Shown here in pieces: positions 38,897 through 59,866 of a DNA stretch of 64,000 bases; positions within the stretch are counted from its first letter, which is position 1, and each line of letters begins with the position of its first letter. The stretch comes from Clostridia bacterium (GTDB lineage: Bacteria > Bacillota > Clostridia > UMGS1810), in assembly GCA_017621495.1 (NCBI GenBank), contig JAGATB010000039.1:1-64000 (forward strand), read 5' to 3'. The translations under genes and the position numbers were made by a program. The notes beneath the pieces are model-generated. The model did no database searches. It was not told the origin of the DNA and saw only the letters and a program-made list of their open reading frames with translations.

Positions 38897-39586
38897 ATGG
38901 AAAATTTAATTTTAGTTGTAGATGATGAAAAGCCGATAGTTGATATACTTAAGGTTAACCTTGTAAAAAGCGGTTACAGGGTAATTGAAGCATATGACGG
39001 AAATGAAGCTGTAAACAAGGCACTTACAGAAGAACCCGACCTTATACTTCTTGATGTAATGCTGCCCGGTCAGGACGGCTTTTCCGTATGCAAAAAAATC
39101 CGTGAAACCTCTGCAGTTCCGATTATAATGCTCACAGCACGTGAAGAAGAAGTAGACAAAATCCTGGGTCTGGAGCTCGGTGCCGATGACTATATGACCA
39201 AGCCCTTCTCCCTGCGCGAGCTCATGGCGAGAGTCAAAGCAAACCTGAGGAGAACCCAGCTTGCAGCCAAGGAGGAGGCAGGCGGCGAAATCCTCACATT
39301 TGGAGACCTTGCAATTGACGTGGAGAAGTACGAGGTTAAAAAACGCGGCGAGGTAATAGAGCTTACATTCAGAGAATTTGAGCTTTTGAAATTCCTTGCA
39401 ACCAAAAAAGGTAAAATTTTCTCCAGAGAAAATCTCCTTAATAAAGTATGGGATTACGAATTCTACGGAGATGTGCGTACCGTGGACGTAACCATAAGAC
39501 GTCTGCGTGAAAAAATAGAGGATAACCCCAGCATGCCCACATATATTATAACCAAGCGCGGAGTAGGATATTATTTTGGAGCGTAA
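38897..39586 (+). CDS. walR: Cell-wall response regulator WalR (YycF)
   Basis: OmpR-family regulator of peptidoglycan hydrolase genes. The 229-residue protein has the receiver domain ([16 protein letters not shown], phospho-acceptor D53 in LLDVMLPG, K in [19 protein letters not shown]) and a winged helix ([41 protein letters not shown]). The receiver closely follows the WalR pattern. Followed 3 bases later by walK and then yycH and yycI. Confidence 0.92.
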
Positions 39587-39589
39587 GCA

Positions 39590-41359: not shown

Positions 41360-41389
41360 CGTATAAATGTTATACTGTTTTAAGCTCAG

Positions 41390-41422
41390 TGTAATGGTTC
41401 TGTAACAATTATGTCGTATAAT
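41390..41422 (+). promoter_or_regulatory. Perfect WalR box and -10 upstream of a secreted-protein gene
   Basis: TGTAAT-GGTTC-TGTAAC (41390-41406) matches the WalR consensus TGTWAH-N5-TGTWAH exactly. TATAAT (41417-41422) follows 10 bases later, with no -35, the geometry of a promoter activated by a PhoB/WalR-type regulator. Confidence 0.8.
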
Positions 41423-41488
41423 ATAGTTAAGATAAAATGTAAAAGTATGAATTCAATTTTTAGTGTACAATACAAAGGTGTGATTTTT

Positions 41489-41950
41489 ATGAAACTCAAA
41501 AAACTAATAACAACAATACTCACAATTGCCATACTTACTATGCCTATGCTGGCATTTGCTTCTGCAGAGACTCTTCCTGCAGGTTATGCAGGCAATTCCG
41601 ATGCGCTCATTGACATCAAGAATCCGGAAGCTGCAGTAACGTCTACCACAAGTAAGATTTGCGTGGTTTCTGCTGTTGCCGTATCCGGTACTACAGTTAC
41701 ACTCTATACATATGATAATGCATCCGGCAAATATGTAAAGATGTATTCCGACGGTAAGGCTCTTGAATCAGTGGTAGGTGCCGCAGGTCTCTATGCGCAG
41801 AGTGTAGAGCTCAAATCCGGTGCTAATACCATACTCGTAGTAGCTAACTCAGGCGATGCTACAGAGACAATCAAGCTGGATATCACTCTTCTTAAGAATG
41901 ATTTTGCCGAAAGCCTCAGAAGCATCTGGCAGACTCTTATAAATTATTAA
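41489..41950 (+). CDS. Small secreted protein, likely WalR target
   Basis: A 153-residue exported protein of unknown function. Signal peptide with cleavage after AFA (about residue 25), then a beta-rich mature region (VSAVAVSGTTVTLYTYDN, ANTILVVANSGDATE). No catalytic motif is evident. It starts 130 bases after walK under a WalR box and sits between walK and yycH, 14 bases before yycH, so it may be part of the wall-homeostasis output. The ATG after AAAGGTGTG is used. Confidence 0.65.
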   Translation: MKLKKLITTILTIAILTMPMLAFASAETLPAGYAGNSDALIDIKNPEAAVTSTTSKICVVSAVAVSGTTVTLYTYDNASGKYVKMYSDGKALESVVGAAGLYAQSVELKSGANTILVVANSGDATETIKLDITLLKNDFAESLRSIWQTLINY

Positions 41951-41963
41951 TAGGGAGATTGCT

Positions 41964-43382
41964 ATGAAAAAGGAAACCCTTAAAACCATAACTCTGGTTT
42001 TACTGGTGCTCAGCAGTATAATATTGACCATTAACAATTGGTTTAGTGAAAAATTATGGCCTGACGGCTATAATTTTTTTTCTAATTTAGCAAATTATTT
42101 TTCCGATGAGGAAGCACCAAAAAGCTACTACCTGTCCAAGGAGAATGTATCAAACCCAACCAAGCTCATTGTCAACAACAATGAGTACAGAGGTATGTAT
42201 ACGCACACCTCCACACACTATAACGATATGGTAGAGCCCGTTAAAAAAATACTCAAGCAAGGTCTCAAAAGCGAAAGCTATGACAAAGGAACCGAGGAAG
42301 CCTGGAAAAATGCCCTTAAAACGAAATCAATATATATTGCTTACCCTGTGGCATATGGCACCAAGACCTTTTCTGCTTTGATGGATACCCCTATCAAAGC
42401 TGTAGAAAACGGCAGTATACAAGAATTCGTAATTGCCGCAGGAGATGCCATAACCGGCAAACCGCATCTTTTGATAAAAAATGCCGCCTCCGACAGCTTT
42501 GTGGATGTAACCCTTACAGCAGACAGCACTGAAATTGATGAGATTATAGAGAGATATGCTGTTTCATCCATAGGCGAGCTCCCCTACTCCTTCGAGCTCA
42601 ACTTTGATAAATCCGGCGACGCAATAGAGCAAAAAGTAATCATAGAGCCCCAGGTGGTACTGTCTATAAATCCTATGACCGCTTCCACGGTTACAGCAAC
42701 AAATTATTTCGAAAACATATCCGGAAACAAAGAGCTTTACAGCGAATTTTTGCACTCATTCGGATTTAATACTTCAAATATGAAGAAATATGTAAATGTT
42801 GATAATTCAATAGTATTTGCCGAAAATTACGGCAGTATAAAGATGTATCCCGACGGACTTATGGAATACAAGTCTCTGGATGATACTATGGGTATAGAAA
42901 TAGGCAAATCAACCGAGTTTTATGACACATTTATCGACTGTATAGAATTTGTAAACAACATATGGGACACAGCATGTCATAAACTGAATATGAACATTAA
43001 CCTCTCATCTGTAAAGACTACCGGCAGTGACAACAGCTTTGTGCTCACTATAGACTACTTTGCAGATGGTATGGAAATAGTATCGGCACTCCCTGCAAAC
43101 GAATCTCACGACAAGATAAGCCACGCCATAGAAGTAGAAGTGAAAAATTCCAGGGTTATATCATACAGGCAGATTGTAAAAGGTTATGAAACCAACAATG
43201 ATGAGGTACAGTGCAGCTCTGTGATAGAAGCACTGGACACACTCATGGCAAACGAAAGCATAAAGTCCGATACCATAACAGACCTGTATCTGGCATATTA
43301 TCCATACAAAAAGACTATATATGCACCATGTTGGGTTGCCAAAACCGATAAAAATGAAATCAGGATTATCAAAAATCAATAG
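41964..43382 (+). CDS. yycH: WalK regulatory membrane protein YycH
   Basis: 472 residues, a single N-terminal membrane helix followed by WFSEKLWPDGYNFFSNLANYF, the YycH hallmark, then a large extracellular part. In Bacillus YycH and YycI form a complex that restrains WalK; in Staphylococcus they activate it. A GGGAGA ribosome binding site is present. Transcribed with yycI. Confidence 0.85.
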   Translation: MKKETLKTITLVLLVLSSIILTINNWFSEKLWPDGYNFFSNLANYFSDEEAPKSYYLSKENVSNPTKLIVNNNEYRGMYTHTSTHYNDMVEPVKKILKQGLKSESYDKGTEEAWKNALKTKSIYIAYPVAYGTKTFSALMDTPIKAVENGSIQEFVIAAGDAITGKPHLLIKNAASDSFVDVTLTADSTEIDEIIERYAVSSIGELPYSFELNFDKSGDAIEQKVIIEPQVVLSINPMTASTVTATNYFENISGNKELYSEFLHSFGFNTSNMKKYVNVDNSIVFAENYGSIKMYPDGLMEYKSLDDTMGIEIGKSTEFYDTFIDCIEFVNNIWDTACHKLNMNINLSSVKTTGSDNSFVLTIDYFADGMEIVSALPANESHDKISHAIEVEVKNSRVISYRQIVKGYETNNDEVQCSSVIEALDTLMANESIKSDTITDLYLAYYPYKKTIYAPCWVAKTDKNEIRIIKNQ

Positions 43383-43398
43383 AATGTGAGGCAGGCAT

Positions 43399-44184
43399 AT
43401 GAATCTGGGTAAGGTGAAAACTTTTCTGATTGTACTGTTTTTGGGCATAAATATTTATTTGATTGCATCACACTTTATGGCAACTACATTTTACGTAGAT
43501 GATAAGACCATAGACAGCACTATAGAAATTATAAAAGGACGAGGTATAGAAGTTGATAAGGATACCGTGATTAAATATACGGTAAACTTAAAAAACGTCG
43601 ACACAAACAACATAATCTATACAGACGGCTTTGACACGAAAAAAAACGGCTATGAAATAAGCGGAGATGAATTTAAAATCCGCGAAGAATCACCGGACAT
43701 CTACAGCAAAAGCGATAAGGCGATACACAAAGAGGTAAAATCATTTTTAGAGCAAAGCGGATTTGATACCAAACATATGAAATTTAGCAAAATCAGTAAA
43801 CAATCCGATAAGAAATCCTTTAAAATAGTTTGCCGTATACGTGATTATGAGATATTCGACAGCAGGATAAATGTAAATGTGGATAAAAACGGGTATACTC
43901 TTATGGGAAGCTGGTTTGAACCCCAATCCGATGACACCATGATGAATTCCCGTTCCAGAAAAGCAGTTTACATCACAAGTGTGCTGATGGATTTGGCTGA
44001 AAACGAGGATGCCAAGAAAAATCTGCCCTTTAAAATAACAGATATCGACTATGGTTACCTCTCCGGCACACTGTACGGCGGTGAAGGTCACGTAACTGCA
44101 ACAGCACAGCCCTGCTACAGAATAAAGGATAATAAAAGCAATGTATATTATTATGATGCCTCTGACGGCACATATATTAAATAA
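43399..44184 (+). CDS. yycI: WalK regulatory membrane protein YycI
   Basis: 261 residues with an N-terminal anchor (NLGKVKTFLIVLFLGINIYLI) and an extracellular YycH/YycI-type domain with repeated beta-alpha structure. Follows yycH by 16 bases, completing walR-walK-yycH-yycI, with the extra secreted-protein gene inserted. Confidence 0.82.
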   Translation: MNLGKVKTFLIVLFLGINIYLIASHFMATTFYVDDKTIDSTIEIIKGRGIEVDKDTVIKYTVNLKNVDTNNIIYTDGFDTKKNGYEISGDEFKIREESPDIYSKSDKAIHKEVKSFLEQSGFDTKHMKFSKISKQSDKKSFKIVCRIRDYEIFDSRINVNVDKNGYTLMGSWFEPQSDDTMMNSRSRKAVYITSVLMDLAENEDAKKNLPFKITDIDYGYLSGTLYGGEGHVTATAQPCYRIKDNKSNVYYYDASDGTYIK

Positions 44185-44849: not shown

Positions 44850-45641
44850 ATGAATAAAAAATTACTTTCTCTGCTGCTGGCGGGGATGCTCATCCTAAGT
44901 ACTGCGTGTACGGCAAGCGGAGCTGAACTTGAAGAAAGCGGAGCTGTTTTGACAATTGACCGCATAACTCACTACTCCAACCCACAGGATCCGATTATAT
45001 TCAACATTACAGTTCCAACAACATATACCGATGGTATTCTTCTTGCAGGCTTTTACACAAACGGGCAAATGAGTAAGCTCGAACCGCTTGATATATCATC
45101 CAAATCAAAATTCTCCGTAAAATATCAAATGACCTATGAGGACAATGACGGATACCCTCTTACTCCCGATGAAATTAAACTGTTTATATGGAACAGGGGC
45201 AACCTTATGCCGCTTACTATTGCAACTGAATCGGAAAGTATTTTAACATCAGATATAATTGAAGCAGCAAATTATTGCACTATCAATTGGATGCTTAACA
45301 GAATCCTCGGAACCGGTTCAACAACCGGTGTGATTTCCGCATTGAAAAGTAAAATCGATCCCCCTGAAAATTACCCCAAAATAATTTATTTGTTGGACTT
45401 GATGAAGGATGCAGCTCAAAAAGCATATAACATAAAATCAGAAAAAATTCTGACAAGTGAATTTACCAAAAGATTTTTGGATGATGAATTACAGGAATTA
45501 AAATCAGTGGTTGAATATATTGAAAGTGTTGAGACTCAAAAAAATGCACTGGTAAATGCATACAACACCTTGAACAAAACTCAAAAAAATACAATCAACT
45601 ATTTATTTACATTCTTTGGAATTGAATTTAATCTTCAATAA
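44850..45641 (+). CDS. Exported protein of unknown function
   Basis: A 263-residue protein with a signal peptide (LLSLLLAGMLILSTAC). A cysteine follows ILSTA, so it may be a lipoprotein, although the lipobox -3 residue is Ser rather than the usual Leu. The middle part is beta-rich; the C-terminal 100 residues are helical. I do not recognise a family. AAGGA precedes the ATG. Single-gene unit ended by a strong terminator. Confidence 0.6.
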   Translation: MNKKLLSLLLAGMLILSTACTASGAELEESGAVLTIDRITHYSNPQDPIIFNITVPTTYTDGILLAGFYTNGQMSKLEPLDISSKSKFSVKYQMTYEDNDGYPLTPDEIKLFIWNRGNLMPLTIATESESILTSDIIEAANYCTINWMLNRILGTGSTTGVISALKSKIDPPENYPKIIYLLDLMKDAAQKAYNIKSEKILTSEFTKRFLDDELQELKSVVEYIESVETQKNALVNAYNTLNKTQKNTINYLFTFFGIEFNLQ

Positions 45642-45665
45642 ATAAACTGCTATAGATAAAAAATA

Positions 45666-45710
45666 AATGCCAATCCCTGAAAATAAATTCACAGGGATTG
45701 GCATTTTCAT
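45666..45710. terminator. Bidirectional terminator
   Basis: A 14-bp stem (AATGCCAATCCCTG with CAGGGATTGGCATT) with T tracts on both sides, ending the plus-strand exported-protein gene and the minus-strand SLH gene. Confidence 0.92.
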
Positions 45711-45740: not shown

Positions 45741-47588
45741 TTAGTTGCCGTAATTTAAATTAACATTAAATATTGTTGCAAGGTCCATCATTACCTTGCT
45801 GTTTAGGGCATTGCACTCATCTTTCAATATCTCTCTGCTTTCACTGTCCATAGGATCATAAATTTCTTTTATATTAGCTATTTGCTCGGCATAAACAGTG
45901 CGCACAAGATTACTGGAAACCATTACCCCCTGTTCCTCCCAGCTCACAATTGTTTCGCCGGTTTCGGAATCTTCAAAAGTCTTAAGAATTTCATCAGCAT
46001 CAATATCATACTTGCCAACGACATTCTGCATTGCCGACTCAAGTATGGGAAGTATACCACATTCATCAAAAAATGTCAGCTGTTCATCAAGTCTCTTTAA
46101 AGCTATATCCTTAAGAGCCGCCGCAAGCGCATCATAAATATATATATACTCCTCCTGCATATCCTCCCAAACAGCATGATAAATCAGGTTTCCGGTAGTT
46201 CCGGCAGGAATCACCGTAATCGGTTCATCTGTATGGAAAATTGCTGTTGTACCATTGAATTCTCTTGGTTCATACCAACCAATGAAAGGAACACCATCTT
46301 CTCTCTCCGGTATGGGAAGCTCATAATCTTCATCATATTCGGTATATTTTGTTTTTTGTGTTCCGTCCAGCTTGCCAATCGCCGCAGGGTCATAGTCGGG
46401 GTCATCTTCGGCATAAGTCACCGGATTTATCTTATACTGAATTTTATATTCATACGCCCACTTTGCATAATATGTCTTGTCTCCTGTAGAGCCTGATGCA
46501 AGCACCGTTACAGGCTCGCCGTCAAACTCAGCTGTTTCATACCAACCAAAGAACTTATATCCACCGTTTTTAGTTGGCGTAGGCAAAGTATAATCGGCAT
46601 CGGATGCCTTATATGTTGTTCTCTGTCCGCTGAGAGTTCCGTTATTTAAGTTATAGGTAATTTTGTATGATGTCTCTGTGGGTGTATCGGGAGTGCCTTG
46701 ATTACCACTGTCGCCGGAGCCTTGATTATTATCGTCTCCGGAGCTGCCGTTGTTACCGGAATTGCCGGAATTGCCGGAACCGCTACTTCCTCCTGTAGAA
46801 GGCTTAACAGTTGTATTTCCTCCGGAGCTTGTATTGCCACCTGTACCGGTTCCTGTGCTGCCGCCTACATTAACTGTGGGAGCTTTTTCCGGCTCTTTGA
46901 TAACTACAAAATCGTCCAGTGTAACTGCAAGCTCACCTCTGGTCATATCATCTGTAGCACGAAATTTGCCATCTGCTTCAAGGGGCATATATCCCAAAGC
47001 AATGATATTAGTAACGTAAGGCACAGCCCAATCGGATACTGTATCTGTAATTACAACTTCCTTGTCGGTGGTTTGATCTAATATACGGCTTAAGATAGTG
47101 CAGACTTCTTCACGGGTAATGAAGTCATTGCCACGGAAGGTACCGTCCTGATATCCCTGAATGTAGCCGTAGTGAATTGCAGGGAGTACGTGAATATAGT
47201 ACCAGTCTGCAGGTGTTACATCAGTAAATTTGTTGTCTGCCATGATAGTATAATCAAAGGTTGTGTTTATCATCTTGCAGAATTCGGCTCTCGTAATGGG
47301 GTTTAAGGGTCTGTAGGTATATGTACCGTCAGCTTCAAGGTAACCGTTTACCACACCGCCTGCAATAAGCTTTGCTATACTTTTGCCCAGATCTGAGCTT
47401 CCGTCAATATCCTTCATGGGAGATGCAGTGGTTTCTTCTTTTTCATTGGTTTCTGTCTGTGTTTCTGCTGTCGTTTCCGGTGTTGTCTCGGCTGTAGTCA
47501 CTGCGGCAGTATCTGCAAAGCAGAAATTCACCGAGCACACCAGTACTAAAACAAGCGCCAGAAGTGAAATAACTTTTTTCATTTTCAT
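45741..47588 (-). CDS. S-layer-homology protein with InlB-type repeats
   Basis: About 615 residues: signal peptide (cleavage near CFA-D, about residue 24), Thr/Glu-rich linker, three SLH modules (about 65-225, including ITRAEFCKMINTTF, ITREEVCTILSRIL and MTRGELAVTLDDF), a Gly/Ser/Asn linker (about 230-300), and two Listeria-Bacteroides-type repeats (YNLNNGTLSG and FFGWYETAEF, then a second copy), then a helical acidic end. SLH modules would hold it on the wall. The ATG 6 bases after AAAGGA is chosen. It stands alone, downstream of the giant gene. Confidence 0.85.
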   Translation of the reverse strand: MKMKKVISLLALVLVLVCSVNFCFADTAAVTTAETTPETTAETQTETNEKEETTASPMKDIDGSSDLGKSIAKLIAGGVVNGYLEADGTYTYRPLNPITRAEFCKMINTTFDYTIMADNKFTDVTPADWYYIHVLPAIHYGYIQGYQDGTFRGNDFITREEVCTILSRILDQTTDKEVVITDTVSDWAVPYVTNIIALGYMPLEADGKFRATDDMTRGELAVTLDDFVVIKEPEKAPTVNVGGSTGTGTGGNTSSGGNTTVKPSTGGSSGSGNSGNSGNNGSSGDDNNQGSGDSGNQGTPDTPTETSYKITYNLNNGTLSGQRTTYKASDADYTLPTPTKNGGYKFFGWYETAEFDGEPVTVLASGSTGDKTYYAKWAYEYKIQYKINPVTYAEDDPDYDPAAIGKLDGTQKTKYTEYDEDYELPIPEREDGVPFIGWYEPREFNGTTAIFHTDEPITVIPAGTTGNLIYHAVWEDMQEEYIYIYDALAAALKDIALKRLDEQLTFFDECGILPILESAMQNVVGKYDIDADEILKTFEDSETGETIVSWEEQGVMVSSNLVRTVYAEQIANIKEIYDPMDSESREILKDECNALNSKVMMDLATIFNVNLNYGN

Positions 47589-47630
47589 AACCATTCCTTT
47601 CTCTGTTGCGTATAAAATCTAACTTTTGAG

Positions 47631-47702
47631 ATAATATCTCTGCACCATAGGGCGCAGAGATATTTATCCTTTCACTTATAATACTTTTGAGAGACTCAAA
47701 AG
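47631..47702 (-). terminator. Two hairpins after the giant surface-protein gene
   Basis: ATATCTCTGC arms (47631-47665) and a 19-base near-palindrome CTTTTGAG-AGA-CTCAAAAG (47684-47702) lie between the stop of the giant gene and the next gene. Neither has a clear T tract, so termination may be partial. Confidence 0.5.
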
Positions 47703-47713
47703 GTTGCATTTTT

Positions 47714-50700
47714 TTAGTCTGTAATATATTGCAGATATCTTTGTGCATCTACTGTATGTCTGCCTGTGTTGTAACCCTTAACTTCTCTTGCTGCAACTGT
47801 CTTAGTGTATGCATCTCTGATAAACTTAAGACTTGTAACAGGCTCATACTTCAGACCTTCGAGTTTGGACTTAATCTTCATCATAACATCTTCAATCTTG
47901 TTTACACCATGATAATTTGTAGAATCAAATATCGCAGTAGCAAGAGTATCAATGTTAAATGCGTTATTTTCTTCGCTCATTTCCAGAAGAATCTTATAAA
48001 CCTCATATGCATTTCCGTCTGCATACACACTCAGATTAGCAAGGTCAATGATTTCGGTATAATCTCTGTCTAAGTAATCTTCATAGAAATTCTTAGCTTT
48101 GTCAATATACTCGGTAATCTTATCCTCGTGCTTCTCGTAGAAGTCTTCTACCTTGTCATATGCACTGTCTACCTTATCATTTACACCAAGTACCTTACCC
48201 AGGAACTTATCTGCAAGCTCATAAGGTGTGTAACCCTTGGGAAGCTCGCCTGTCTCAATGTAATGCATAATAACATTATTTGCCTTGTTAGCATATACAC
48301 CCAGTATATGTGATACTGCATCAAGCTTATCTTCAAGTGAAGCTTCACCCAAAGTATTATACCACATAACAGCGTCATGTACCAAGATTGCGTTTTCAAG
48401 GAGTATGTCATAGTATCTTACTATGGGGCTACCGTATTCCATTGTTTCCTCATCGTAATGACCCTTCTTGATGCTGTAGCCGCTCATTTCCTCGCTTACC
48501 TTAGATGCATCGTAATCAAGAAATTCAAGTATCCAATCCTTAGCAAGGAGCTTCTGTACATAGGGGTTGTTTGCTATAAACTGCTTGCTGTTAAGCTTGG
48601 GTTTAACCTTATCCATTACCTTGTTGTAGTAAATCTCTACAATGTCCATGTAGTTAATGCGTACAGCAGGTCTTGTGCTGAAGGTGTATTCTGCAGCTGT
48701 GTTTCCTTCACCATCTTTATATTCTGCATTAAACTTAGCAATTGCATCATCCATCAATCTGCAGAACTCTGCAAAGTATGCATTCACTATATCTGCTACT
48801 ATGTCGTGACCTATGAGGTCTACTACCTTCTGAATATTCTCGGGCAGGAAGTCTGATGCAAGCTTATCGTAATTATAAGTATGCATAAGCTCATCGAGGA
48901 TTTCGATGAATACTATGTTGCCCTCGTTGACTCTTACACCCTTACCGGACATGAAATCTGTGATTGTGTTCTTAAACTCCGGTGTTTTCTTAAGTGCTTC
49001 TACAGCAGTATGTGCATATGTCGGAACTAACTTTTCAAGCATTTCAACGCTTTCGGAATCTCCGGCGATGTATCCGTCAATGTATTCCTTCATATGTTTG
49101 TTGATTTCAGCATCAATAAACTCTTGCAGATCTTTATCCATGTTATAGTTAACATAATCGTCAACAAGTTTTTCAACCTGGGTATGGATTATATCTCTGA
49201 TTGTAGTTTCTGAAGCATCGTCAAGCTTTTCATACGCGTAGTCACTAACTATCATGGATGCATTATCTTTTATCAACTGATCTACCGCTGTTTTAAAGTC
49301 ACCATCATTGTTATAATTTTCCCTAAGTGTAGCTTTAATGTCAACCTGTGCAATAACCTTATCAACCATAGACTTAAGACCGGATTCAACCTCTACATCG
49401 TCATCGGCATCCTTAGCACCGGCAATATATTCGTCCACCAATCTTGTCACTACATTTTTGATTGTAGAACGTACAGTCGCTGTAGTTGTAGGTTCATCGT
49501 ATGCAATGTTTGCCCATTTTTCTACATTTGCTTCATACAACGAGTCGAATATTTCATCAAAATAATCATCGAAATATTCATCGAAAAGGCTATCATACTG
49601 TGATGTGTAGAAGCTATCAAAATGTGTATTAACTAAATTGTTAAATTCATCCGTACCAAGTGAGTTATAATATGTGCTGAAATTATCATCAAATAATGTT
49701 TCGTATGCTGTCTTACCTGTTTCGGAATCCTTGGTGTTATCATTAATAATAGTATCTACATTATCATCAAATAGTGTTTCATACGGTGTCTTACCTGTTT
49801 CGGAATCCTTGGTATCATCACTGATAATCGCATCTACGTTGTCATCAAACAATGTCTCATATACTGTCTTATTAGTTTGAGGATCCTTAACCTTATCATT
49901 TACGATAGAAGTAACATTATTGCTAAACAGCTCTTCGTACTTATCTTTGTCACCTGTAATCTTATCGATATTTGCATCAAACAATGTTTCATACGTAGCT
50001 GTATCATTCATTATAGCATTTAAGTTATCTTCAAACAATTTTTCGTATACAGTCTTTTCGGATTCCGAATCTGCCTTGCTGTTGAGGTATGTTTCATTAA
50101 AGTAATCGCTAAACAATGTTGTGTAATTTGATGTAGCATACTCCTCTATATTGTCTTCAATAGCCTTTTTGTATTCTGCGACTATATTATTATATGTCGA
50201 TTCGTCAATAGCTTTAAGTTCAGACGGAGCGTTTATGAACTTATCTATAAATGTGTCTGCATCAACATCTTCCCAAACCGTACCAATCGTAACGCTTTCG
50301 TATGCATTTACAAATTGTGTTCTTACAGTTTGGTTTGACAATATATCTGTACGCTTATCATCTGCTTTGAAGTCATCAACATTAGAAACTATATAGTCAA
50401 TAACTCTGTCTTTTATTGTATCTTCTTCGCTATGCTTTTCAATATAGTCAACAACCGTACCTCTTACAGTGGCATCATTCATGTGTTCTTCAAGATAAGA
50501 TTTAACTGTTCCCTTAATCAAATCATCATTCTTATGATCTTTAATGTAGCTAACAATCGTGTTCTTTATAGTGGTATTATTCTTATTAGTAGTAATATAA
50601 TCCACAACAGCATCTTTTATCAATTTATCATTCTTATGAGCTTTGATATACTGAACAACAGTATTTTTGATGGAAGTACTATTCTTATTATCTTTTATAT

Positions 50701-53700
50701 AAGATGTTACTTCATCTTTAACTACATTTTTATTTGCAATCAGGTAATTCTCAACCTCTGCTTTGATCTCCGAATTAGTTTGAGGATTCTGCAGCATTTC
50801 AAGAAGTTCTGTCTTAAGAATAGCCTTAGCATCTTCGTCTGTTTCCAAAGTAGTTTTGAGTACAGCACGGATTTCACCACTATTCTCAATTATTACCTTA
50901 AGCTCACCCTTTACAGCTTTTGATTTGAGCTCTGTTTCTATATAGCTCTTGAGCTCTGCATCAACAGTATCGCCAAAGTAAACATTTTCTATGTGCTGTG
51001 CGCCGGTATCAACAATCTTCAATTTGAATGTTGTTCCACTTTCAAGCACTTTTGCACGAATTTCTTCATTGTTTAACACATAGTCCAGTACACTATCATT
51101 GTTGATAACTGTGCTTGCAAAATCTGTATTATTAATAATATCATTAACAAACGCAGAATTATTATTTTCTATATCATCCTTGATAATCTCTTTGATAAAG
51201 TCATCTGTAAGGAAGATACTTCTTATTTCAGGATCGCCCATAGCATTATGTTTGAGCTGTTCGTCTTCCAAAAGCATTTTTTCGACAGAATCATGTCTCA
51301 GAATATCTCTTATAAATTCTTCATTGTCAATGTTCGCATCAATATAGATATCAATTTCTTTCATGATAAGATCTTCGGTAACAATCTTATCAAGCGGTAT
51401 CGGAATAAGCGGATTAAGAAGATTGCCGTCTGCATCCACAAATCCTGTCTTGGTAGCCTTTTCAAGTGCAAACTCATACGGGTCAAATCCACCGTGTTCT
51501 TTCAGGTCATAGAGCATACTTTCAAGTGTCGTGCCAAATGCCGTAAGTGCATCAAGACCTGATTTAATGATTTCCGTATTGGAATCATAAGCAATAGCAA
51601 GCTCAATCTTAGGAATCTTAATTCCCTTAACTTCAAGGTCTGTTTCGTAGGATGCGCTTACATAAGCTGTCATCAAGTACACATTTGTCTCTTCCATGAT
51701 AGGTGTATTCAGGTCAAAGAGCTTCCACTCCTTGCCATCCTGATACCAATACTCAGGCATGATTTTGTGTACATTGCCATCACTGTCGGTGTAACCTTCT
51801 ACATCTACATATTCTGATTGAGGAATTATTGCATCAAGCTGAGTCTGTGTTATCTTGCCGCCTACTTCTACCGGGATATCGTCAATGTATTTCTTACCCT
51901 TGTGTACCTTTACAACTATGCTGTCTGCCTTGGTGAGGCTTATAATAGCATCTGTAGGTTTATAATCACGTGCATCTGTACCATCAGCATCTGTAAGCTT
52001 GGTATCTGTGTAGGTAAAGGTCACATCACCCTCTGTTGCTAAATCCTTTGTAAATGTTATTTCAAAGAGGATATTGCCAAGAGTCATCATATCTTCTGAT
52101 GTGAGGGCTTTGTCTGTTGCCCACTTGATTGTACCATCTGCCTTTTCGGTAATAGTACCGGGTATACCGTCATACAAGGCTGTATCCTTATACTTGAGAA
52201 GGTCTACATCCATGTCATAAGTAAGCTCCATGGACTTAAGGTTATCCACATCGTTAGGAATATCCTCAAGTGTTACGCCCACCTTAACTTCCGTATCTGT
52301 AGATGAAAGCTTTACAAATGTGAGAACGGGGTTCTCCTTGCGCCATTTAGCTGTATAAACCTTGGCATCCTTTTCCAGCCATTCCGATGCAGGAATTGTA
52401 GTTACCTTCTTGTCTGTGGTACCTTCATACCAATATTCAAATACATAGCCCTCTCTTACAGGCTTAAATACTGTAAGATCATAGTCAGTATCTTCTATAG
52501 TATATGTGGTCTTAGGTGATTCGCCATCAAACTTACCGTTTGTTCCCAGTTCGTATGTAATCGTAAAGGGTTTAGCTGCCTTTGATACAGTTGCACTGCT
52601 GCCCACATAGCTATCAGGCTCTTTACCATCGGAGTCCTTCATATGAATCTGGTTGTCTGAGGTCTTAATAGTAGCATGCACACTACCATCCCAGTCGTCA
52701 TCTTTCATATTTACATTGAATGTAATTGTAGCAACTACGTTATTATTAGCTTCCAGTAATTCCTTAGTAATGACACCATCAGCCATAGTAGTTATAGCTG
52801 CTCTGCCCTCAGACATAGGCATAATAGTCATGCCGGAAGCCGCCCATGTCATAGCTCCGAGCTTATGCTCGAAGTTACCGCTGAGTCCCAATCCGGGATT
52901 GAGCTCAGTCTTAACATATTCAAGCTCGCCATCAGCGTCTTCTAAATCATAATAAAGTCTGAGTACTGATATATCTTCCATTTCCTCGGGAAGCTCATTA
53001 ATCTTAACATCAATTTTAACCGTCTTGGATGATTCATCTATAGCATGAGCATAATAATTGATAGTACCAACCTGCTCAATCCACTTACCATAGAACTTGT
53101 AGTTACCGAGCTTTGTTATTGCATTTATCTTAGCATCGCTGTCGGTAAAGGTTTCCTTATCATACCAACCAATAAATGTGAAGCCGGACTTTGTAGGTGC
53201 AAGTAAGTCATAGGTGCTATTTACCATATCCTTAACATTATAGTCGTCTACATTTCCATACTGTTCAAATGCCTTAGTATCATCATTGTAGATATAGTAT
53301 GTAATCGTATAAGGAATTGGTTCTTCCACGATAGTGATAGTAATATCTTCTTTTACTTCATATGTGGTTACATCTATCTCATTCTTGCCGCTTGCGCCAT
53401 CGGCATATACTACCCACTCATAACCATCTGTATTCTGAGTGTTCAGTTTAGCGTTAATAGCATTGATAAGGTTTGTATTTGTGTCAAGCTTTGCATTTTC
53501 TGCAACATCATAATCTGTTCCGTTATAATGTACTGTATAGTAACCGTCGGGAATATCAATAACTATACCATTGGGGTCAATGGTGTATCCGGTTGCAATT
53601 TTTGCATTATAGTTGGCAAGCTCAGCACCGTCAATCTTAACTTTAACCTTGCCGCCCTTTGTTAAATCTTCTCTTGCAAAGGTTATCACAAAGAGTGCCT

Positions 53701-56700
53701 TATTGCTGTCAATCTCAGTAAGTCTGTCTGCGGATGAATTTGCATTCCATACAATTCTACCATCCGCATTATTCTTAAAGGTGCCGTTTGTTGTACCAAG
53801 AGGCTTTCCTGCACCATCTACTCTGACATACTTAACACCCTTGTATGTAAGGATACCTTCGCTGTTTCCTTCCATAATATAGTCTATGGTGATAGCAGAA
53901 AGGTCATCTATGCCGATATCCTTGGGGAAATCGCTGAGTTCTACATAAACCATGATTTCCGTGGTATCTTTCTCAACTGTTACGGGCTTATAGCTAAGTG
54001 AGAGTACAGACTCACCGCTCCAGTCAGCATAGACATACATCGGATTTTCGGGGTCAAGCTTTGTAATATCATCAATCTTGTCTATAGGTGTGGTAAGAGC
54101 TGCGTCCTTGTACCATCCCTTGAAGTACTTGGGATTTTGAGGTTCTGCCCATTCTACATCATTTTCATTTATAAGCGTGTATTTCTTGCCGCCTAATGTA
54201 TCAACATCCAGTGTTACTTCATATTCACCTGTTGTTGCTCCGACTTTACCACCATTGAGTACATATATCAACTTATACTCAATTGCATCCCACTTAGCAT
54301 AAAGTGTTGTTACATTATTGTTATCTCTGGGAGAATTAATATCAACACTATTCACCTTACTTGCATCGGACAGGCTTGCATCTGTATGCCAGCTTGCAAA
54401 TTTAAGTCCTTCGTCAGCTTTGGAAGCGGGTGTTGGTAATGAACTGATGGGTTCATCAATATTGTAACTGTAATCCACTGTTACAGCAGCATCAAATGCT
54501 GCATCTGAACTACCATCCATATACTTAACCGTATATTCTATGGGTGTTTCGGCAGAGGTAATTGTTATATCGCCATTAACCACTATTTCTTTAATTTGAT
54601 CAATGGTATACTCTGCGCCATTAATAATGAACTTCTTACCATTTTTGAACTCATAGTGTTCTTCCGGCTCATATGCATTTAACGCATCGACAAGAAGCTC
54701 CTTAACAGCCGCATCAAGGTCAATTGCTGCTGTTGAGAGTTTATCACCGGCATATGCCTCATATGTTTTTTCGTCAAATTCTATTTTAAATAACTGGTCG
54801 CCGTCAACAGTAGTTGTAATTCCCTTAACATCGTATCCGTATGTTACTTCTTTGCCGGTTGCATCCAGAATAGTTGCCTTGTCATCAACAAAGTCAATAG
54901 TAACATTTCCGGTTGCTTCTCTGTTCTTGCTGAATGTAATTGTAAAGAGAGTTACACCTGCATTGGAAATACTTGAAATATCTCCTGTCCATGTAATCTT
55001 ATTACCATTACGAACCACGGTGCCAACTGTTGAACTGATGTTCTTGCAATCTATACCGGCATTGGCATCCGTTGCAGTTAAATCATATTCAAAGGTAACA
55101 GATGTTATTCCTGTAGTGCCTACAGGGAGCTTATTCAATATAACATCAATTACAAGATTTTCCTTATCTGTAGCAGCATTCGTATACAATCCTAATACTG
55201 CATTCTGTTCCCATTCCGCATATACAGTAATTCCTGTAGCATTACCTTCGGGGAGCAGCTTGTTCGGAATGTGAGTTATAGCAGCATCAGAAAGGTCTTT
55301 CTTTAAATGCCAGCCTACAAATGTATAACCGTCTCTTACTATAGCTGCAGTTGTCAAACCGTGCAGCTTGTAGAGATTGTTATCTTTGTATGTGTCAATA
55401 TCATACACATCATCTAAAGTCAAAACAGGTACTCCGTTAATTTTAGCAGATGTATCATTGGTATTAACATCATATATAATATCGTACTTTATAGCAACGA
55501 AATTAGGAACAATTACCTTGCCGTTCATAGTGTACTTAGCTATGGTATCGGGAGTTATAAGTCCATTTTCTCCGTCAAATTTAAATCCTTGATGTGTAAA
55601 TCCGGCAGGAACTTCGTCCTCATCCAGTGGTTTAAGCACATCGGATAACTCTGTAGTGCCATTTAATGCGTCATAGAGCTTTTCGTCTTCATAAACAGAA
55701 TACTCTACATCTTTATACTTTACGGTAATTTTAGTCTTACCGGTACCAATATCAAATGTCAGGGGAGCAGTATCGAATGCTGTTGAGCTTTCGGTATCAT
55801 TGGTAAGTGTAATATCGCCATATGTAAATGTTACTTCACCTGTAGCAAATTTATCTTTAGTAAATACGAGTGTAAAGAGTACACCGTCGGTAGGAAGTGC
55901 AGTAAATGCATTGCCTGTCCATCTAATAATTCCGTTTTCAGAACCGACAACCGAACCGCCTATACCTGCATTAGGTATAACACCGGTGAGCGGGTTATGG
56001 ACTAAAGCATTGGCACCTGTTCCTGTATAAGTGTAATTAATAACCATGTTCTTGATACCGTTTTCTATATCTTCCGGAATCTTATCAAGAAGCACATTTA
56101 CTCTTACTTCTGTATCAGTTGTTGACGCTACTTTAAATGTAAAATTAGCATTATCGGGCCATCTTGCATAGAACACGTACTTGCTTCCTTCACTGCCGTC
56201 GCCGGGAGCTGCCAAAGCAGGGATTGTTTCATAAGGTCCATCTTTAAATTCGGCATCCTTGTACCAGCCAAGGAATTTGGATGTTCCTTTAGTGGGAACA
56301 GGAAGCGTAACAGTCTTATCTACGGTATATGTCTTATCATATACAGCCGGTAGAGTACCACCGTTCAATTTATATTCGATATCATAGGGTATGGTAACAA
56401 TATGAGGATAAACAGTTATAGCACCCTCCACTACATAGTCGGTACCAACCTTATCACCCTTACCTTTTTCTTCGGTATAATATCCCTCTATCTTATATCC
56501 CTTGTCAACCGATGCAGGAACCTTCTTATTAGCTATAATGTCCGCAAGAACTGTATCCTTGCTGATGGGTTCCTGGTAACGATAATCATACTCTGTACCG
56601 TTAAGAGTTACCTTAAATGTATCACGCTTATAGTAAACCTTAATTTCCAGACTGCCATTGTTTGTTCCGGAAAGAACGGACTTGTCTGTATCTATCACAA

Positions 56701-57826
56701 AACCGTATTTGTCATCCGGGGTATAGGTTATTGTATTGCCTTTTTTAGCTACAGGGTTCTCTGTAGAAACTAAAGTATACTCGCCTTCCTTATCCACATC
56801 TTCAATGTATGTATGTATCTTATAGTAAGCATTCTTCTTAGAAGAGGATGATGAGCCACCGGTGTTAAAGCTTACATTACCCAGGAAGGTAGCCTCTGTA
56901 TCGAGAACTATACAATCAAAAATCTTCTCATTTCTGTAGTTATGGAAGTTTACCACGCCGTTGATGTCGTGAACTACAACCATCTCTCCTACGCTACAGC
57001 CGGAAATAAACTGAACCTTGCCTTCACCGCCTCGGCACAGAATTCTTCCGCTAACTTTGACGTTATTCATGATAACATCACCAGCACCGACACCATCACC
57101 CAAAATGAGGTCACCGCTTATGGTAACGTTAGTTAAAGTAACGTTTGGAACTCTGATTACAGTTGTACCATAAACTGCACCGGCTACATTTCCGGAGGTG
57201 CTTATGTATGTTTTGAAGATATTGTGCATCACCTGTGCAAACTCTTCTCTGGTGATATATGCCTGAGGATTGAGTCTGCCCTCATTATCACCGTTTACAT
57301 AGCCGCGTTTAGCCATAGCACTTACGTATGAAGCCGCCCACACTGAAGTATCACTGCCGTCAACAAATCTTGACAGTGAGCCTGCTGTGGTATCGGAGAG
57401 CACCAGGGCTCTTGCTACCACGGTAAACATAGCCTCTCTTGTAATATATCCGTTGGGGTTTAATATACCGTCGCCTTCACCGACGATGGTACCCATATTA
57501 ACCGCCTTTTGGAATTCGGAATAATACCAGTCACCGGGATTTACATCGGTGTACTCCGAAATGTCAGCCTTTACAGTAGCACCGAAAGCACGGTTAATAA
57601 CCGCTGCCGCCTCTGCCCTGGTAAGGTTGTCTCGGGGAGCAATAATTCCTCCTCCTTTACCTTGTAATAGGCCGTTGTTTACAGCTGCGGTAACTGCCTC
57701 TTCAGACCATGTCCCGGTGGGGAAGTCCGAAAAACCATATGCAGCTGCACCGGCAAACACGGGTAACATGCTTATTATCATAAGTATGCTAAGCAGTGCT
57801 GCCAGAACTCTGTTTGATTTTCTCAT
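47714..57826 (-). CDS. Giant SLH surface protein with cohesin-like and helical tandem-repeat regions
   Basis: A 3370-residue exported protein. Signal peptide (about 1-28); three SLH modules (about 30-205, SLH ends VINRAFG, VVARAL, VMHNIFK); a right-handed beta-type stretch (about 215-330, TLTNVTISGDLILGDG); then InlB/Listeria-Bacteroides-type repeats alternating with five cohesin-like beta modules (near 559-705, 875-1010, 1275-1420, 1589-1750, 1832-1968). From about 2100 it is acidic and helical, with 17-residue repeats (about 2362-2475) and 26-residue repeats (about 2559-2712), and ends in a long helical region. No catalytic motif. Cotranscribed 17 bases behind a membrane-anchored protein. 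Overall a wall-bound scaffold or adhesin is likely; ligand unknown. Confidence 0.88.
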   Translation of the reverse strand: MRKSNRVLAALLSILMIISMLPVFAGAAAYGFSDFPTGTWSEEAVTAAVNNGLLQGKGGGIIAPRDNLTRAEAAAVINRAFGATVKADISEYTDVNPGDWYYSEFQKAVNMGTIVGEGDGILNPNGYITREAMFTVVARALVLSDTTAGSLSRFVDGSDTSVWAASYVSAMAKRGYVNGDNEGRLNPQAYITREEFAQVMHNIFKTYISTSGNVAGAVYGTTVIRVPNVTLTNVTISGDLILGDGVGAGDVIMNNVKVSGRILCRGGEGKVQFISGCSVGEMVVVHDINGVVNFHNYRNEKIFDCIVLDTEATFLGNVSFNTGGSSSSSKKNAYYKIHTYIEDVDKEGEYTLVSTENPVAKKGNTITYTPDDKYGFVIDTDKSVLSGTNNGSLEIKVYYKRDTFKVTLNGTEYDYRYQEPISKDTVLADIIANKKVPASVDKGYKIEGYYTEEKGKGDKVGTDYVVEGAITVYPHIVTIPYDIEYKLNGGTLPAVYDKTYTVDKTVTLPVPTKGTSKFLGWYKDAEFKDGPYETIPALAAPGDGSEGSKYVFYARWPDNANFTFKVASTTDTEVRVNVLLDKIPEDIENGIKNMVINYTYTGTGANALVHNPLTGVIPNAGIGGSVVGSENGIIRWTGNAFTALPTDGVLFTLVFTKDKFATGEVTFTYGDITLTNDTESSTAFDTAPLTFDIGTGKTKITVKYKDVEYSVYEDEKLYDALNGTTELSDVLKPLDEDEVPAGFTHQGFKFDGENGLITPDTIAKYTMNGKVIVPNFVAIKYDIIYDVNTNDTSAKINGVPVLTLDDVYDIDTYKDNNLYKLHGLTTAAIVRDGYTFVGWHLKKDLSDAAITHIPNKLLPEGNATGITVYAEWEQNAVLGLYTNAATDKENLVIDVILNKLPVGTTGITSVTFEYDLTATDANAGIDCKNISSTVGTVVRNGNKITWTGDISSISNAGVTLFTITFSKNREATGNVTIDFVDDKATILDATGKEVTYGYDVKGITTTVDGDQLFKIEFDEKTYEAYAGDKLSTAAIDLDAAVKELLVDALNAYEPEEHYEFKNGKKFIINGAEYTIDQIKEIVVNGDITITSAETPIEYTVKYMDGSSDAAFDAAVTVDYSYNIDEPISSLPTPASKADEGLKFASWHTDASLSDASKVNSVDINSPRDNNNVTTLYAKWDAIEYKLIYVLNGGKVGATTGEYEVTLDVDTLGGKKYTLINENDVEWAEPQNPKYFKGWYKDAALTTPIDKIDDITKLDPENPMYVYADWSGESVLSLSYKPVTVEKDTTEIMVYVELSDFPKDIGIDDLSAITIDYIMEGNSEGILTYKGVKYVRVDGAGKPLGTTNGTFKNNADGRIVWNANSSADRLTEIDSNKALFVITFAREDLTKGGKVKVKIDGAELANYNAKIATGYTIDPNGIVIDIPDGYYTVHYNGTDYDVAENAKLDTNTNLINAINAKLNTQNTDGYEWVVYADGASGKNEIDVTTYEVKEDITITIVEEPIPYTITYYIYNDDTKAFEQYGNVDDYNVKDMVNSTYDLLAPTKSGFTFIGWYDKETFTDSDAKINAITKLGNYKFYGKWIEQVGTINYYAHAIDESSKTVKIDVKINELPEEMEDISVLRLYYDLEDADGELEYVKTELNPGLGLSGNFEHKLGAMTWAASGMTIMPMSEGRAAITTMADGVITKELLEANNNVVATITFNVNMKDDDWDGSVHATIKTSDNQIHMKDSDGKEPDSYVGSSATVSKAAKPFTITYELGTNGKFDGESPKTTYTIEDTDYDLTVFKPVREGYVFEYWYEGTTDKKVTTIPASEWLEKDAKVYTAKWRKENPVLTFVKLSSTDTEVKVGVTLEDIPNDVDNLKSMELTYDMDVDLLKYKDTALYDGIPGTITEKADGTIKWATDKALTSEDMMTLGNILFEITFTKDLATEGDVTFTYTDTKLTDADGTDARDYKPTDAIISLTKADSIVVKVHKGKKYIDDIPVEVGGKITQTQLDAIIPQSEYVDVEGYTDSDGNVHKIMPEYWYQDGKEWKLFDLNTPIMEETNVYLMTAYVSASYETDLEVKGIKIPKIELAIAYDSNTEIIKSGLDALTAFGTTLESMLYDLKEHGGFDPYEFALEKATKTGFVDADGNLLNPLIPIPLDKIVTEDLIMKEIDIYIDANIDNEEFIRDILRHDSVEKMLLEDEQLKHNAMGDPEIRSIFLTDDFIKEIIKDDIENNNSAFVNDIINNTDFASTVINNDSVLDYVLNNEEIRAKVLESGTTFKLKIVDTGAQHIENVYFGDTVDAELKSYIETELKSKAVKGELKVIIENSGEIRAVLKTTLETDEDAKAILKTELLEMLQNPQTNSEIKAEVENYLIANKNVVKDEVTSYIKDNKNSTSIKNTVVQYIKAHKNDKLIKDAVVDYITTNKNNTTIKNTIVSYIKDHKNDDLIKGTVKSYLEEHMNDATVRGTVVDYIEKHSEEDTIKDRVIDYIVSNVDDFKADDKRTDILSNQTVRTQFVNAYESVTIGTVWEDVDADTFIDKFINAPSELKAIDESTYNNIVAEYKKAIEDNIEEYATSNYTTLFSDYFNETYLNSKADSESEKTVYEKLFEDNLNAIMNDTATYETLFDANIDKITGDKDKYEELFSNNVTSIVNDKVKDPQTNKTVYETLFDDNVDAIISDDTKDSETGKTPYETLFDDNVDTIINDNTKDSETGKTAYETLFDDNFSTYYNSLGTDEFNNLVNTHFDSFYTSQYDSLFDEYFDDYFDEIFDSLYEANVEKWANIAYDEPTTTATVRSTIKNVVTRLVDEYIAGAKDADDDVEVESGLKSMVDKVIAQVDIKATLRENYNNDGDFKTAVDQLIKDNASMIVSDYAYEKLDDASETTIRDIIHTQVEKLVDDYVNYNMDKDLQEFIDAEINKHMKEYIDGYIAGDSESVEMLEKLVPTYAHTAVEALKKTPEFKNTITDFMSGKGVRVNEGNIVFIEILDELMHTYNYDKLASDFLPENIQKVVDLIGHDIVADIVNAYFAEFCRLMDDAIAKFNAEYKDGEGNTAAEYTFSTRPAVRINYMDIVEIYYNKVMDKVKPKLNSKQFIANNPYVQKLLAKDWILEFLDYDASKVSEEMSGYSIKKGHYDEETMEYGSPIVRYYDILLENAILVHDAVMWYNTLGEASLEDKLDAVSHILGVYANKANNVIMHYIETGELPKGYTPYELADKFLGKVLGVNDKVDSAYDKVEDFYEKHEDKITEYIDKAKNFYEDYLDRDYTEIIDLANLSVYADGNAYEVYKILLEMSEENNAFNIDTLATAIFDSTNYHGVNKIEDVMMKIKSKLEGLKYEPVTSLKFIRDAYTKTVAAREVKGYNTGRHTVDAQRYLQYITD
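49674..50080 (-). repeat. 78-base tandem repeat encoding 26-residue units
   Basis: Near-identical DNA units of 78 bases (for example 49690-49770 and 49770-49850) encode YETLFDDNVDTIINDNTKD plus SETGKT spacers. Neighbouring shorter 18-residue copies lack the spacer. The DNA identity suggests recent expansion and possible length variation. Confidence 0.75.
50405..50755 (-). repeat. Tandem 17-residue helical repeats
   Basis: Seven or more consecutive copies of a 17-residue unit, such as IKNTVVQYIKAHKNDKL and IKNTIVSYIKDHKNDDL, diverged at DNA level. Helix with hydrophobic positions 1, 5, 8 and 9. I do not recognise a named family. Confidence 0.7.
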
Positions 57827-57843
57827 ACCGTAATCTCCTCCTG

Positions 57844-58686
57844 TTATTTATAGTCTTCGTCATTCATCTTATTGAGATAATATGACTTCTTCAAGCTTTT
57901 TTCATCATAATAGTAATCTCGTATTTCTTTTACGAGGCCCAGGTCACCGCCTACAGCCTTTAATTCAGCTTCCAGCTCCTTGAGCAAGGCTCTCACCTTG
58001 GCATCACACTCTGCCTCCATGGTACCCACGGTACCGGTATAGCTGTCTACTATAGTCACAATCTGATTTCTGTCATAGTGGCAAGCCTCGTAATCGGCAT
58101 AAGCTTGGTCGCCCAATGCCTCTAGCCGGGATATAAAGTCTGCCTGTACCACATACAGCTCTGCAACCAGTGCCGATACCTTGTCTGTCTCCTCTTTTTT
58201 GGCAGGAGCCTGCGTTTCCACGGTTTCTTCCTTTTTTGGGGGTTCAGCCTTGGGAGGTGACTCTGTCTTGGTATCAGCAGGCTTATCCTCCGGCTTCTCC
58301 GCCTTGGGTTCTTCCTCAGGCTTCTTCTCGGGCTCTTTGGCTGCGAGTATCTCCTCCAAAGTAGCATCACCCTTTACAAGCTTCACAGCTTCCTCTCGGG
58401 TAATCTTACCGTCGGCATATGCCTTGGCTTCCTCTGCCGTGAGCTCGCCCCGGATATTGATAAGGGGGTTTTCCTCTGCTATCTTCTCCATTTTTGCCTT
58501 ATTGGTCTCCATCTTTTTCTCGATTTCCTCGGCAGATTTACGCGAGTTCACGAAGGATACGATGTTGTCCCAATTAAACACAATACGCACTATATTTCGG
58601 TAGCGTATGCCCAGGGCTCCCAGAGTAACTACGATAACCGCAAGTATGCTCAGAAGTGTTATCTTAATTATTTTCTTTTTATTCAT
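57844..58686 (-). CDS. Membrane-anchored protein with charged linker, partner of the giant surface protein
   Basis: 280 residues: a lysine-rich N-terminus and one membrane helix (about 5-27), a coiled-coil region (about 45-100), a Pro/Glu/Lys/Ala-rich linker (about 115-175), and a C-terminal helical domain (about 180-280) with tyrosine- and charge-rich end. No catalytic motif and no recognised family. It precedes the giant gene by 17 bases in the same transcript, so it may anchor, export or organise that protein; this is inference. Confidence 0.7.
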   Translation of the reverse strand: MNKKKIIKITLLSILAVIVVTLGALGIRYRNIVRIVFNWDNIVSFVNSRKSAEEIEKKMETNKAKMEKIAEENPLINIRGELTAEEAKAYADGKITREEAVKLVKGDATLEEILAAKEPEKKPEEEPKAEKPEDKPADTKTESPPKAEPPKKEETVETQAPAKKEETDKVSALVAELYVVQADFISRLEALGDQAYADYEACHYDRNQIVTIVDSYTGTVGTMEAECDAKVRALLKELEAELKAVGGDLGLVKEIRDYYYDEKSLKKSYYLNKMNDEDYK

Positions 58687-58767
58687 TTTCTCTCCTCAAT
58701 AATAAATAAAACATCTTAAAAACCAATGAGGGTATAAAATTGCATATTAAACAATTATACATAATAT

Positions 58768-58796
58768 ATTTTACACTTTCCTTATGCAAATGTCAA
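58768..58796 (-). promoter_or_regulatory. Strong promoter of the surface-protein operon
   Basis: TTGACA (58791-58796), 17 bases, TAAAAT (58768-58773) on the minus strand, about 80 bases before the membrane-anchored gene. Confidence 0.82.
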
Positions 58797-58890
58797 TAGT
58801 TTTAACCTAAAAGTAATGTACAAAAATTGTCTCAAAATACTGTCAATTTGCGTAAAAACATTTGTGAAACAAGTGTTATAAACCAAAAAT
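58797..58890. other. Short gap upstream of the surface operon promoter
   Basis: AT-rich sequence with no supported gene or motif apart from the promoter described separately. Confidence 0.35.
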
Positions 58891-59035: not shown

Positions 59036-59866
59036 TTAATCGTTAAAGCATCCCTTTTCAGGCGGGAAAAACTCGTCTATAGGGAAATGGAGCTTCTCGA
59101 AAAGCTCGCAGGGATTGCTCTCGGTAGAAACAGTACATTCATCCTGAGGAATACAGAAATCAATCACAGGAATAAGAAGCTGTACGTCTCTGATAAGTCT
59201 CACGATTGTAAACAAACCAAGGGTCACATATACCTTGCGGTTGTTATCGCAATCGGTGATTTCATCATCAAACACCTTACAGATGCTTTCCGGTACAGAG
59301 TTTACATCTGTCTCACCGCAGCAGCAACAGCAGTTGTTATCTGCAGGTTCTACGATTTTTGCTCCGAGAGCAATGGGATCTACTACCTCAATGTGCGCCT
59401 CGGGCAGATTGTTTTTCTGCCAGAGCTGGACATCTGCTTCATCGAATTTGTATTTTGAACGGAAGGTTTTGGCATTGCCTTCGGAACCGAAAAGAATTAC
59501 CTTCTTGTCAAATATAGCCAGACCCTCAACAGTGCAGGGTCTGCCCACACCTGTAAATACCTCAAGTGTGATACGGAAGAAGAATCTTAGGTCTACCGAA
59601 TAATAGCCGCGGTTAAACTGAACAGGCTCCACATCCGAATATATCCAGATGATTTCCGCTTTTTTCGCTTTGACGCTCATTGCTCTGTCCACAAGGCATT
59701 GTCCTGCCTCGGTCAGATATACTCTTAAGTTTTCAATGCATTCTTTATCCCTGCACGAATCATATACCTTGCCGGTTTCTATGCAGGCATTACCGCTGTT
59801 GCAATTGGAGTTATTACTGTTGTTGTTACAGCATGGATTGCAACCGGGAAGCACTTTTTCACCCAT
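59036..59866 (-). CDS. Conserved Cys-rich clostridial protein, possible spore-coat type
   Basis: 276 residues with a Cys/Asn-rich head (GCNPCCNNNSNNSNCNSG), a beta-rich core (GRPCTVEGLAIFDKKVILFGSEGN), a five-cysteine run (NNCCCCCGE, about residue 180) and acidic Cys-containing tail. Similar proteins recur as hypothetical in spore-forming clostridia. High cysteine without a signal peptide or membrane segment fits a spore-surface or metal-binding role, which is inference. GGGAGG precedes the ATG. Divided from its neighbours by hairpins. Confidence 0.6.
   Translation of the reverse strand: MGEKVLPGCNPCCNNNSNNSNCNSGNACIETGKVYDSCRDKECIENLRVYLTEAGQCLVDRAMSVKAKKAEIIWIYSDVEPVQFNRGYYSVDLRFFFRITLEVFTGVGRPCTVEGLAIFDKKVILFGSEGNAKTFRSKYKFDEADVQLWQKNNLPEAHIEVVDPIALGAKIVEPADNNCCCCCGETDVNSVPESICKVFDDEITDCDNNRKVYVTLGLFTIVRLIRDVQLLIPVIDFCIPQDECTVSTESNPCELFEKLHFPIDEFFPPEKGCFND

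Follow-up and report, generated by a model that had tools for sequence, protein, structure and literature searches.

A membrane protein of undescribed family encoded with giant and small SLH proteins in a gut Clostridia bacterium

Three genes and their products

The locus lies in a 64,000-nucleotide window, part of contig C26 in a 2.2-Mb, 89% complete genome from a gut Clostridia bacterium. Three genes stand in a row on the minus strand of the window, and its open reading frames (ORFs) give a membrane protein (hereafter the partner), a giant SLH protein and a small SLH protein, with gaps of 17 nt between partner and giant and 119 nt between giant and small SLH gene (Table 1). SLH domains recognize pyruvylated secondary cell wall polysaccharide (SCWP), and the 136 SLH-domain matches in this genome indicate that SLH proteins are numerous in it.

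Among two promoter-like sites of comparable score in 14.6 kb, the one predicted upstream of the partner is alone in being intergenic. A predicted terminator follows the small SLH gene, and the natural unit is therefore three genes rather than two. This layout suggests that the three are co-transcribed, as an operon for part of an SLH-anchored cell surface. An earlier sequence-only reading had described one promoter, a membrane protein and, 17 bases on, a 3370-residue protein, with a second SLH protein bearing InlB-type repeats downstream; the ORFs, the promoter and the domain matches all agree with that description, from which the terminator was absent. The hairpin between the giant and small SLH genes may set the ratio of their products through processing or attenuation.

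Table 1. Positions of genes, domains and predicted signals of the locus within the window
Feature	Position	Strand	Basis
Small SLH protein, 617 aa	45741..47594 (true start possibly 47588)	-	ORF; own clade
Small SLH: three SLH domains	46926..47420	-	PF00395
Small SLH: private helical C-terminal domain	45753..46160	-	Alignment A5
Strong hairpin in the gap from giant to small SLH gene, lacking a T-run	47627..47669	-	RNA fold z -4.95
Giant SLH protein, 3370 aa	47714..57826	-	ORF; relatives L140-L160
Giant: three SLH domains	57236..57733	-	PF00395
Giant: CBM54-like beta-helix segment	56867..57199	-	5gzt_A (ChiW) E 3.9e-8; alignment A2
Giant: cohesin-like module 1	55745..56161	-	Alignment A3, weak
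Giant: cohesin-like module 2	54806..55201	-	Alignment A3, weak
Giant: cohesin-like module 3	53543..54013	-	Alignment A3, weak
Giant: cohesin-like module 4	52583..53071	-	Alignment A3, weak
Giant: cohesin-like module 5	51932..52333	-	Alignment A3, weak
Giant: conserved helical C-terminal domain, ~330 aa	48185..49291	-	Alignment A4; 13 complete giants
Membrane partner, 280 aa	57844..58686	-	ORF; family alignment A1 of 26
Partner: TM helix, ~residues 7-28	58603..58668	-	Sequence; AlphaFold2 helix 3-37
Partner: charged variable linker, residues 118-160	58207..58335	-	Low pLDDT, gap-rich alignment
Partner: C-terminal three-helix bundle, residues 161-275	57862..58206	-	Helices 161-201, 206-245, 250-275
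Predicted sigma-70-type promoter, TTGACA-17-TAAAAT	58768..58796	-	11/12 consensus bases, intergenic
Predicted terminator, 14-bp stem and T-run	about 45659..45706	-	RNA fold z -5.9

The partner belongs to a family of consistent predicted architecture. A basic tip, a single TM helix, a helical stalk and a helical domain at the C-terminus are common to its 26 relatives, along with a linker whose length is highly variable; the membrane anchor (one N-terminal TM helix) and charged linker noted in the sequence-only reading are thus borne out. In the structural model (pLDDT 85.8 overall) the three-helix bundle is mostly above 90. No Pfam family matched more than one of the 26 members, and a fold search gave no PDB match at E <=0.001. 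The best library match, TIGR04526 (immunoglobulin-blocking virulence protein), scored 27.3 bits against a cut-off of 150 and covers the TM helix and charged linker only; across the window's proteins, no NCBIfam family exceeded its cut-off except the repeat model TIGR02543.

The giant combines fixed ends with a free middle. Its SLH domains (94.3 bits against a Pfam cut-off of 20.8) are accompanied by six Flg_new/InlB-type repeats (68 bits, Pfam) and by a CBM54-like segment, a single copy in the host genome, whose similarity to the CBM54 beta-helix of the chitinase ChiW (5gzt_A) lies in its first half and spans ~50 residues of an N-terminal fragment only. We found no catalytic domain in the giant, and its C-terminal third has no Pfam match above cut-offs. 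Among 13 complete giants (the window's and twelve relatives), the helical C-terminal domain ends 98-225 residues short of the C-terminus. This domain has no Pfam family and no confident PDB chain match; its model is not of trustworthy quality (pLDDT 62.8) and returned no PDB match at E <=0.001. The SLH and CBM54-like head is common to all twelve complete relatives, and the middle varies freely. Because the ends are conserved and the middle differs among relatives, the giant is a real inherited protein, and these shared ends rule out the fragment or assembly fusion that the sequence-only reading had named as a refuting case. When named genomes were scanned with the N-terminal alignment A2, the nearest relatives came from ruminant-gut Clostridia and Oscillospiraceae assemblies, and distant ones from Soehngenia, Anaerovorax, Thermincola and Paenibacillus.

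The five cohesin-like modules fared less well. Pfam cohesin has no match in the giant, and the module profile reached the scaffoldin cohesin 4ums (ScaB) at E 0.047, below accepted thresholds. A module profile search did not find them in the giant's relatives. Of the earlier label "SLH/cohesin-like," then, the SLH part stands and the cohesin part is weakly backed by that one similarity; a cohesin-based matrix is rejected given the Pfam result and the modules' absence from the relatives searched. Elsewhere in the host genome there are five dockerin and five cohesin matches (contigs C16, C38, C22, C11 and C5; L126-L130 and L133-L137), several of them within SLH proteins or next to them; together they may represent a small cohesin-dockerin surface system.

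The small SLH protein carries its three SLH domains (93.7 bits, same cut-off) and two Flg_new repeats. Its C-terminal domain has no Pfam family and was found, among the sequences read, only at these loci; the convergent gene at 44850-45641, considered as another carrier of this domain, gave no match. Homology among the helical ends of all three proteins, which could have hinted at one docking fold, was also considered and rejected, as their profiles do not match one another. Searches of a literature library yielded no description of the locus, the partner family or the C-terminal domains of the two SLH proteins. The partner family and both domains are undescribed; the general arrangement, in which helper genes accompany SLH genes, is already known from B. 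anthracis and P. alvei.

Recurrence of the gene order and spread of the partner family

Each of the two kinds of SLH protein is a coherent lineage. In a tree of 92 SLH triplets, 20 small SLH proteins grouped together (support 100/99) and 24 giants formed another group (100/98), both separate from 38 SLH paralogues encoded in the window's genome. Similarity to the window protein helped to choose the small group, and an N-terminal profile was used to collect the giants, so the tree confirms this coherence rather than discovers it. The best matches of the small SLH protein are mostly syntenic small SLH genes elsewhere (97-182 bits); its best paralogue in its own genome outside the locus scores 74 bits. 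Because the order recurs in several genera, and because both kinds of SLH protein are supported groups apart from paralogues, the gene order is more than chance, and the genes share their inheritance.

The partner occurs, nearly always as a single copy, in 50 of 392 Clostridia genomes from 16 families (E <1e-12). All 50 bear SLH domains (E <=1e-9), compared with 164 of the 342 others (Fisher p 4e-15; this and the p values below are too small, the genomes being related and not independent). No partner genome without SLH was seen in the Clostridia sample, to which this restriction applies. The converse does not hold: three SLH-rich relatives (G006, G007, G010) have no partner. A phylum-wide sample added 14 genomes besides the window's in which the partner has a strong match (E of at most 4e-14). 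Thirteen of these fall outside the class, and six of their 13 partner neighborhoods hold SLH or polysaccharide genes (L319, L321, L324, L328, L329, L331).

Giants follow the partner in part of this range. A giant homologue comes directly after the partner in seven genomes of the window's family (G001, G004, G005, G008, G012, G013, G015) and also in families f18 (G066) and f27 (G100, G144), at gaps of -8 to 51 nt; several of these homologues run off contig ends, their full length unseen. The giant's C-terminal domain scores strongly in 10 of the 392 genomes, eight of which have the partner (p 1.5e-6); in the remaining two, from family f65, the partner's place is taken by a small, linker-bearing TM protein unrelated to it. 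Four giants (L152, L155, L157, L160) have neither protein, and in G032 it is a chain-length gene that comes before the giant, the partner being located elsewhere. The coupling of partner and giant put forward by the sequence-only reading thus recurs in three families, but the partner is not giant-specific. That reading had named partners without giants as the finding that would count against it, and across Clostridia the partner mostly has no giant and lies beside SLH, csaB or polysaccharide genes. The f65 protein itself has 166-177 residues, a linker and a helix-rich end, and stands before the giant at L141, L142 and L144, and also at L332 and L333; tried as a partner relative, it aligned over the TM segment only (probability 37%).

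The small SLH gene is a more constant mate of the partner than the giant is. Its C-terminal domain was found in 16 genomes (E <1e-9), and 12 of these also have the partner (p 6e-9). All 10 giant-bearing genomes have this domain after the giant, and in families f5, f17 and f75, without a giant, it comes after the partner. The sequence-only reading had treated this second SLH protein as an extra, which these counts reverse. The likely history is a pair of partner and small SLH genes into which the giant was inserted in some lineages. Partner length and small SLH length correlate across 12 loci (rho 0.64, p 0.02), a relationship we set aside because it is not significant within giant-holding loci (rho 0.46, p 0.29).

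Simple ORF picks around 56 partner loci show what else accompanies the family. An SLH gene lies directly downstream in 23 loci (gaps -8 to 220 nt) and within three genes in 31; csaB adjoins the partner in seven; and a CpsB, chain-length or CapD-type gene lies within three genes in 15. Altogether 42 loci have at least one such marker within three genes and 14 have none. As background, 179 genes seven or more away hold one SLH gene and three polysaccharide genes. One of the csaB genes was verified with TIGR03609 (272 bits, cut-off 213), and the others are its homologues. CsaB makes the ligand bound by SLH domains, and SLH proteins are lost from the wall in csaB mutants (PMC6801904, PMC3297441). 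The host genome has one pyruvyltransferase-family gene.

What the partner may do

A surface role for the partner, in the SLH/SCWP envelope, is well supported, and the protein probably acts as a so far undescribed helper when the SLH outer coat is built or held in place. The candidate molecular steps are assembly or tethering, polymer synthesis and export. We favor, at a probability of roughly 0.45, a membrane-anchored factor of the SLH/SCWP system that acts in assembly or tethering where membrane and wall meet. Both SLH proteins would be exported and bind the wall through their SLH domains, each carrying a conserved helical domain that lies past a variable stretch, at the C-terminus or close to it. 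The partner, presumed bitopic, would present its helical bundle outside the membrane on a flexible linker, and may contact the SLH proteins there to hold them or hand them over from membrane to polymer, the small one first. We prefer this reading on three grounds: in the window's lineage the partner is tied to SLH genes; each of the three proteins has a fixed anchor and a conserved helical domain together with a variable spacer; and a different TM protein substitutes for the partner at that position. Counting against it are the many partner loci with polysaccharide rather than SLH neighbors, the giants and SLH-rich relatives without a partner, and the 14 loci without marker genes. In a broader version that we consider unlikely, the family would be a general SLH/SCWP component in part of Bacillota, a rod that links the membrane physically with the SLH layer; the small SLH protein would serve as its receptor on the wall side, and in this lineage the giant would have joined the same complex.

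The strongest rival, possible though more doubtful than an assembly or tether factor, takes its weight from csaB and the capsule-type neighbors: the partner could be an accessory of SCWP or wall-polysaccharide synthesis (for example polymerization, chain length or ligation), with SLH neighbors because SLH proteins use the polymer. In the seven csaB loci that gene is directly upstream of the partner; chain-length (Wzz), CpsB, tyrosine-kinase and CapD-type genes stand beside it in 15 Clostridia loci, and such genes also occur at L321, L324, L329 and L331 elsewhere in the phylum. About one partner copy despite dozens of SLH genes also fits a common anchor rather than a single client. However, the partner resembles no known polysaccharide enzyme or copolymerase, and the window's lineage ties it to SLH genes, not polysaccharide genes. 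Ranking third, and improbable in our view, is a role for the partner in exporting or folding SLH proteins as a membrane-bound helper, like that of SlaP/SlaQ with SecA2 in B. anthracis. The partner gene does sit just ahead of large secreted proteins at short gaps, and secretion genes in an S-layer cluster provide a precedent (PMC9277125), but the protein offers only a short cytoplasmic tip and no recognized chaperone domain, and among its gene neighbors no secA2-type gene was noticed. Inherited gene order or shared lineage with no functional tie to SLH proteins at all would accommodate the same 14 unmarked loci, the several SLH-bearing relatives that have no partner and the nonindependence of the genomes. 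It is nevertheless very unlikely given that every one of the 50 partner genomes, in 16 families, bears SLH, that SLH adjacency recurs in many families and that a different TM protein takes the position in f65.

According to a review, the mechanisms that organize S-layer-associated proteins had yet to be revealed (PMC3297441). The placement of SLH proteins in the wall is poorly known, and the partner family is a direct, testable candidate for it. The C-terminal domains of the giant and small SLH proteins and the f65 TM protein are further undescribed pieces.

Related systems and neighboring genes

The locus resembles several known arrangements in part. The S-layer cluster of B. anthracis and B. 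cereus (slaP-slaQ-secA2, csaA-csaB, sap-eag) likewise places SLH genes beside secretion and anchoring genes (PMC9277125, PMC3297441), but no partner-type gene is described there, no csaB or secA2 gene was noticed at the window locus, and the window's two SLH proteins are of another make; the comparison of SlaP/SlaQ with the partner is by gene setting only. The P. alvei cluster offers a similar setting, with SLH genes and unknown ORFs alongside SCWP genes (PMC6801904), and its two unknown ORFs are again comparable by gene setting only. The giant's head, in which a CBM54-like segment comes after three SLH domains, follows the order of ChiW/Lic16A-type surface enzymes, a layout known from cell-surface enzymes (PMC5132251). 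Unlike ChiW, the giant has no catalytic domain that we could find and lacks the self-cleavage serine: where the ChiW motif is G-G-G-X-X-S, the window giant reads RGGEGKVQ. The giant of relative L050 reads RGGEQSVK, keeping a serine that fits this motif and that is lost in the window's giant and others. With anchoring scaffoldins (cohesin-SLH) the giant shares an SLH anchor, repeated modules and the subthreshold likeness to ScaB cohesin, but the modules were not found in its relatives and the window's genome has only five dockerin matches.

Several other genes near this and related loci deserve mention. At 38897-44184 on the plus strand, a two-component regulator and sensor kinase are followed by a small secreted-protein gene, a YycH-family gene (PF07435, 43 bits) and a membrane-anchored gene; together these form a WalRK-type wall-regulation operon, which lies near the surface locus and is convergent to it. 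Just upstream of the partner, at 59036-59866 on the minus strand, lies a cysteine-rich gene with the motif KVYDSCRDKECIENLRVYL and no Pfam family. It has homologues at the same place in L041, L044, L046, L050, L051 and L055, and before the giant in L152. At L182, L186, L188, L196 and L199, secreted proteins of ~205-216 aa with a repeated VPTVLPIAVGTDG motif directly precede SLH-CBM54-like proteins of ~450-480 aa, forming a separate recurring pair.
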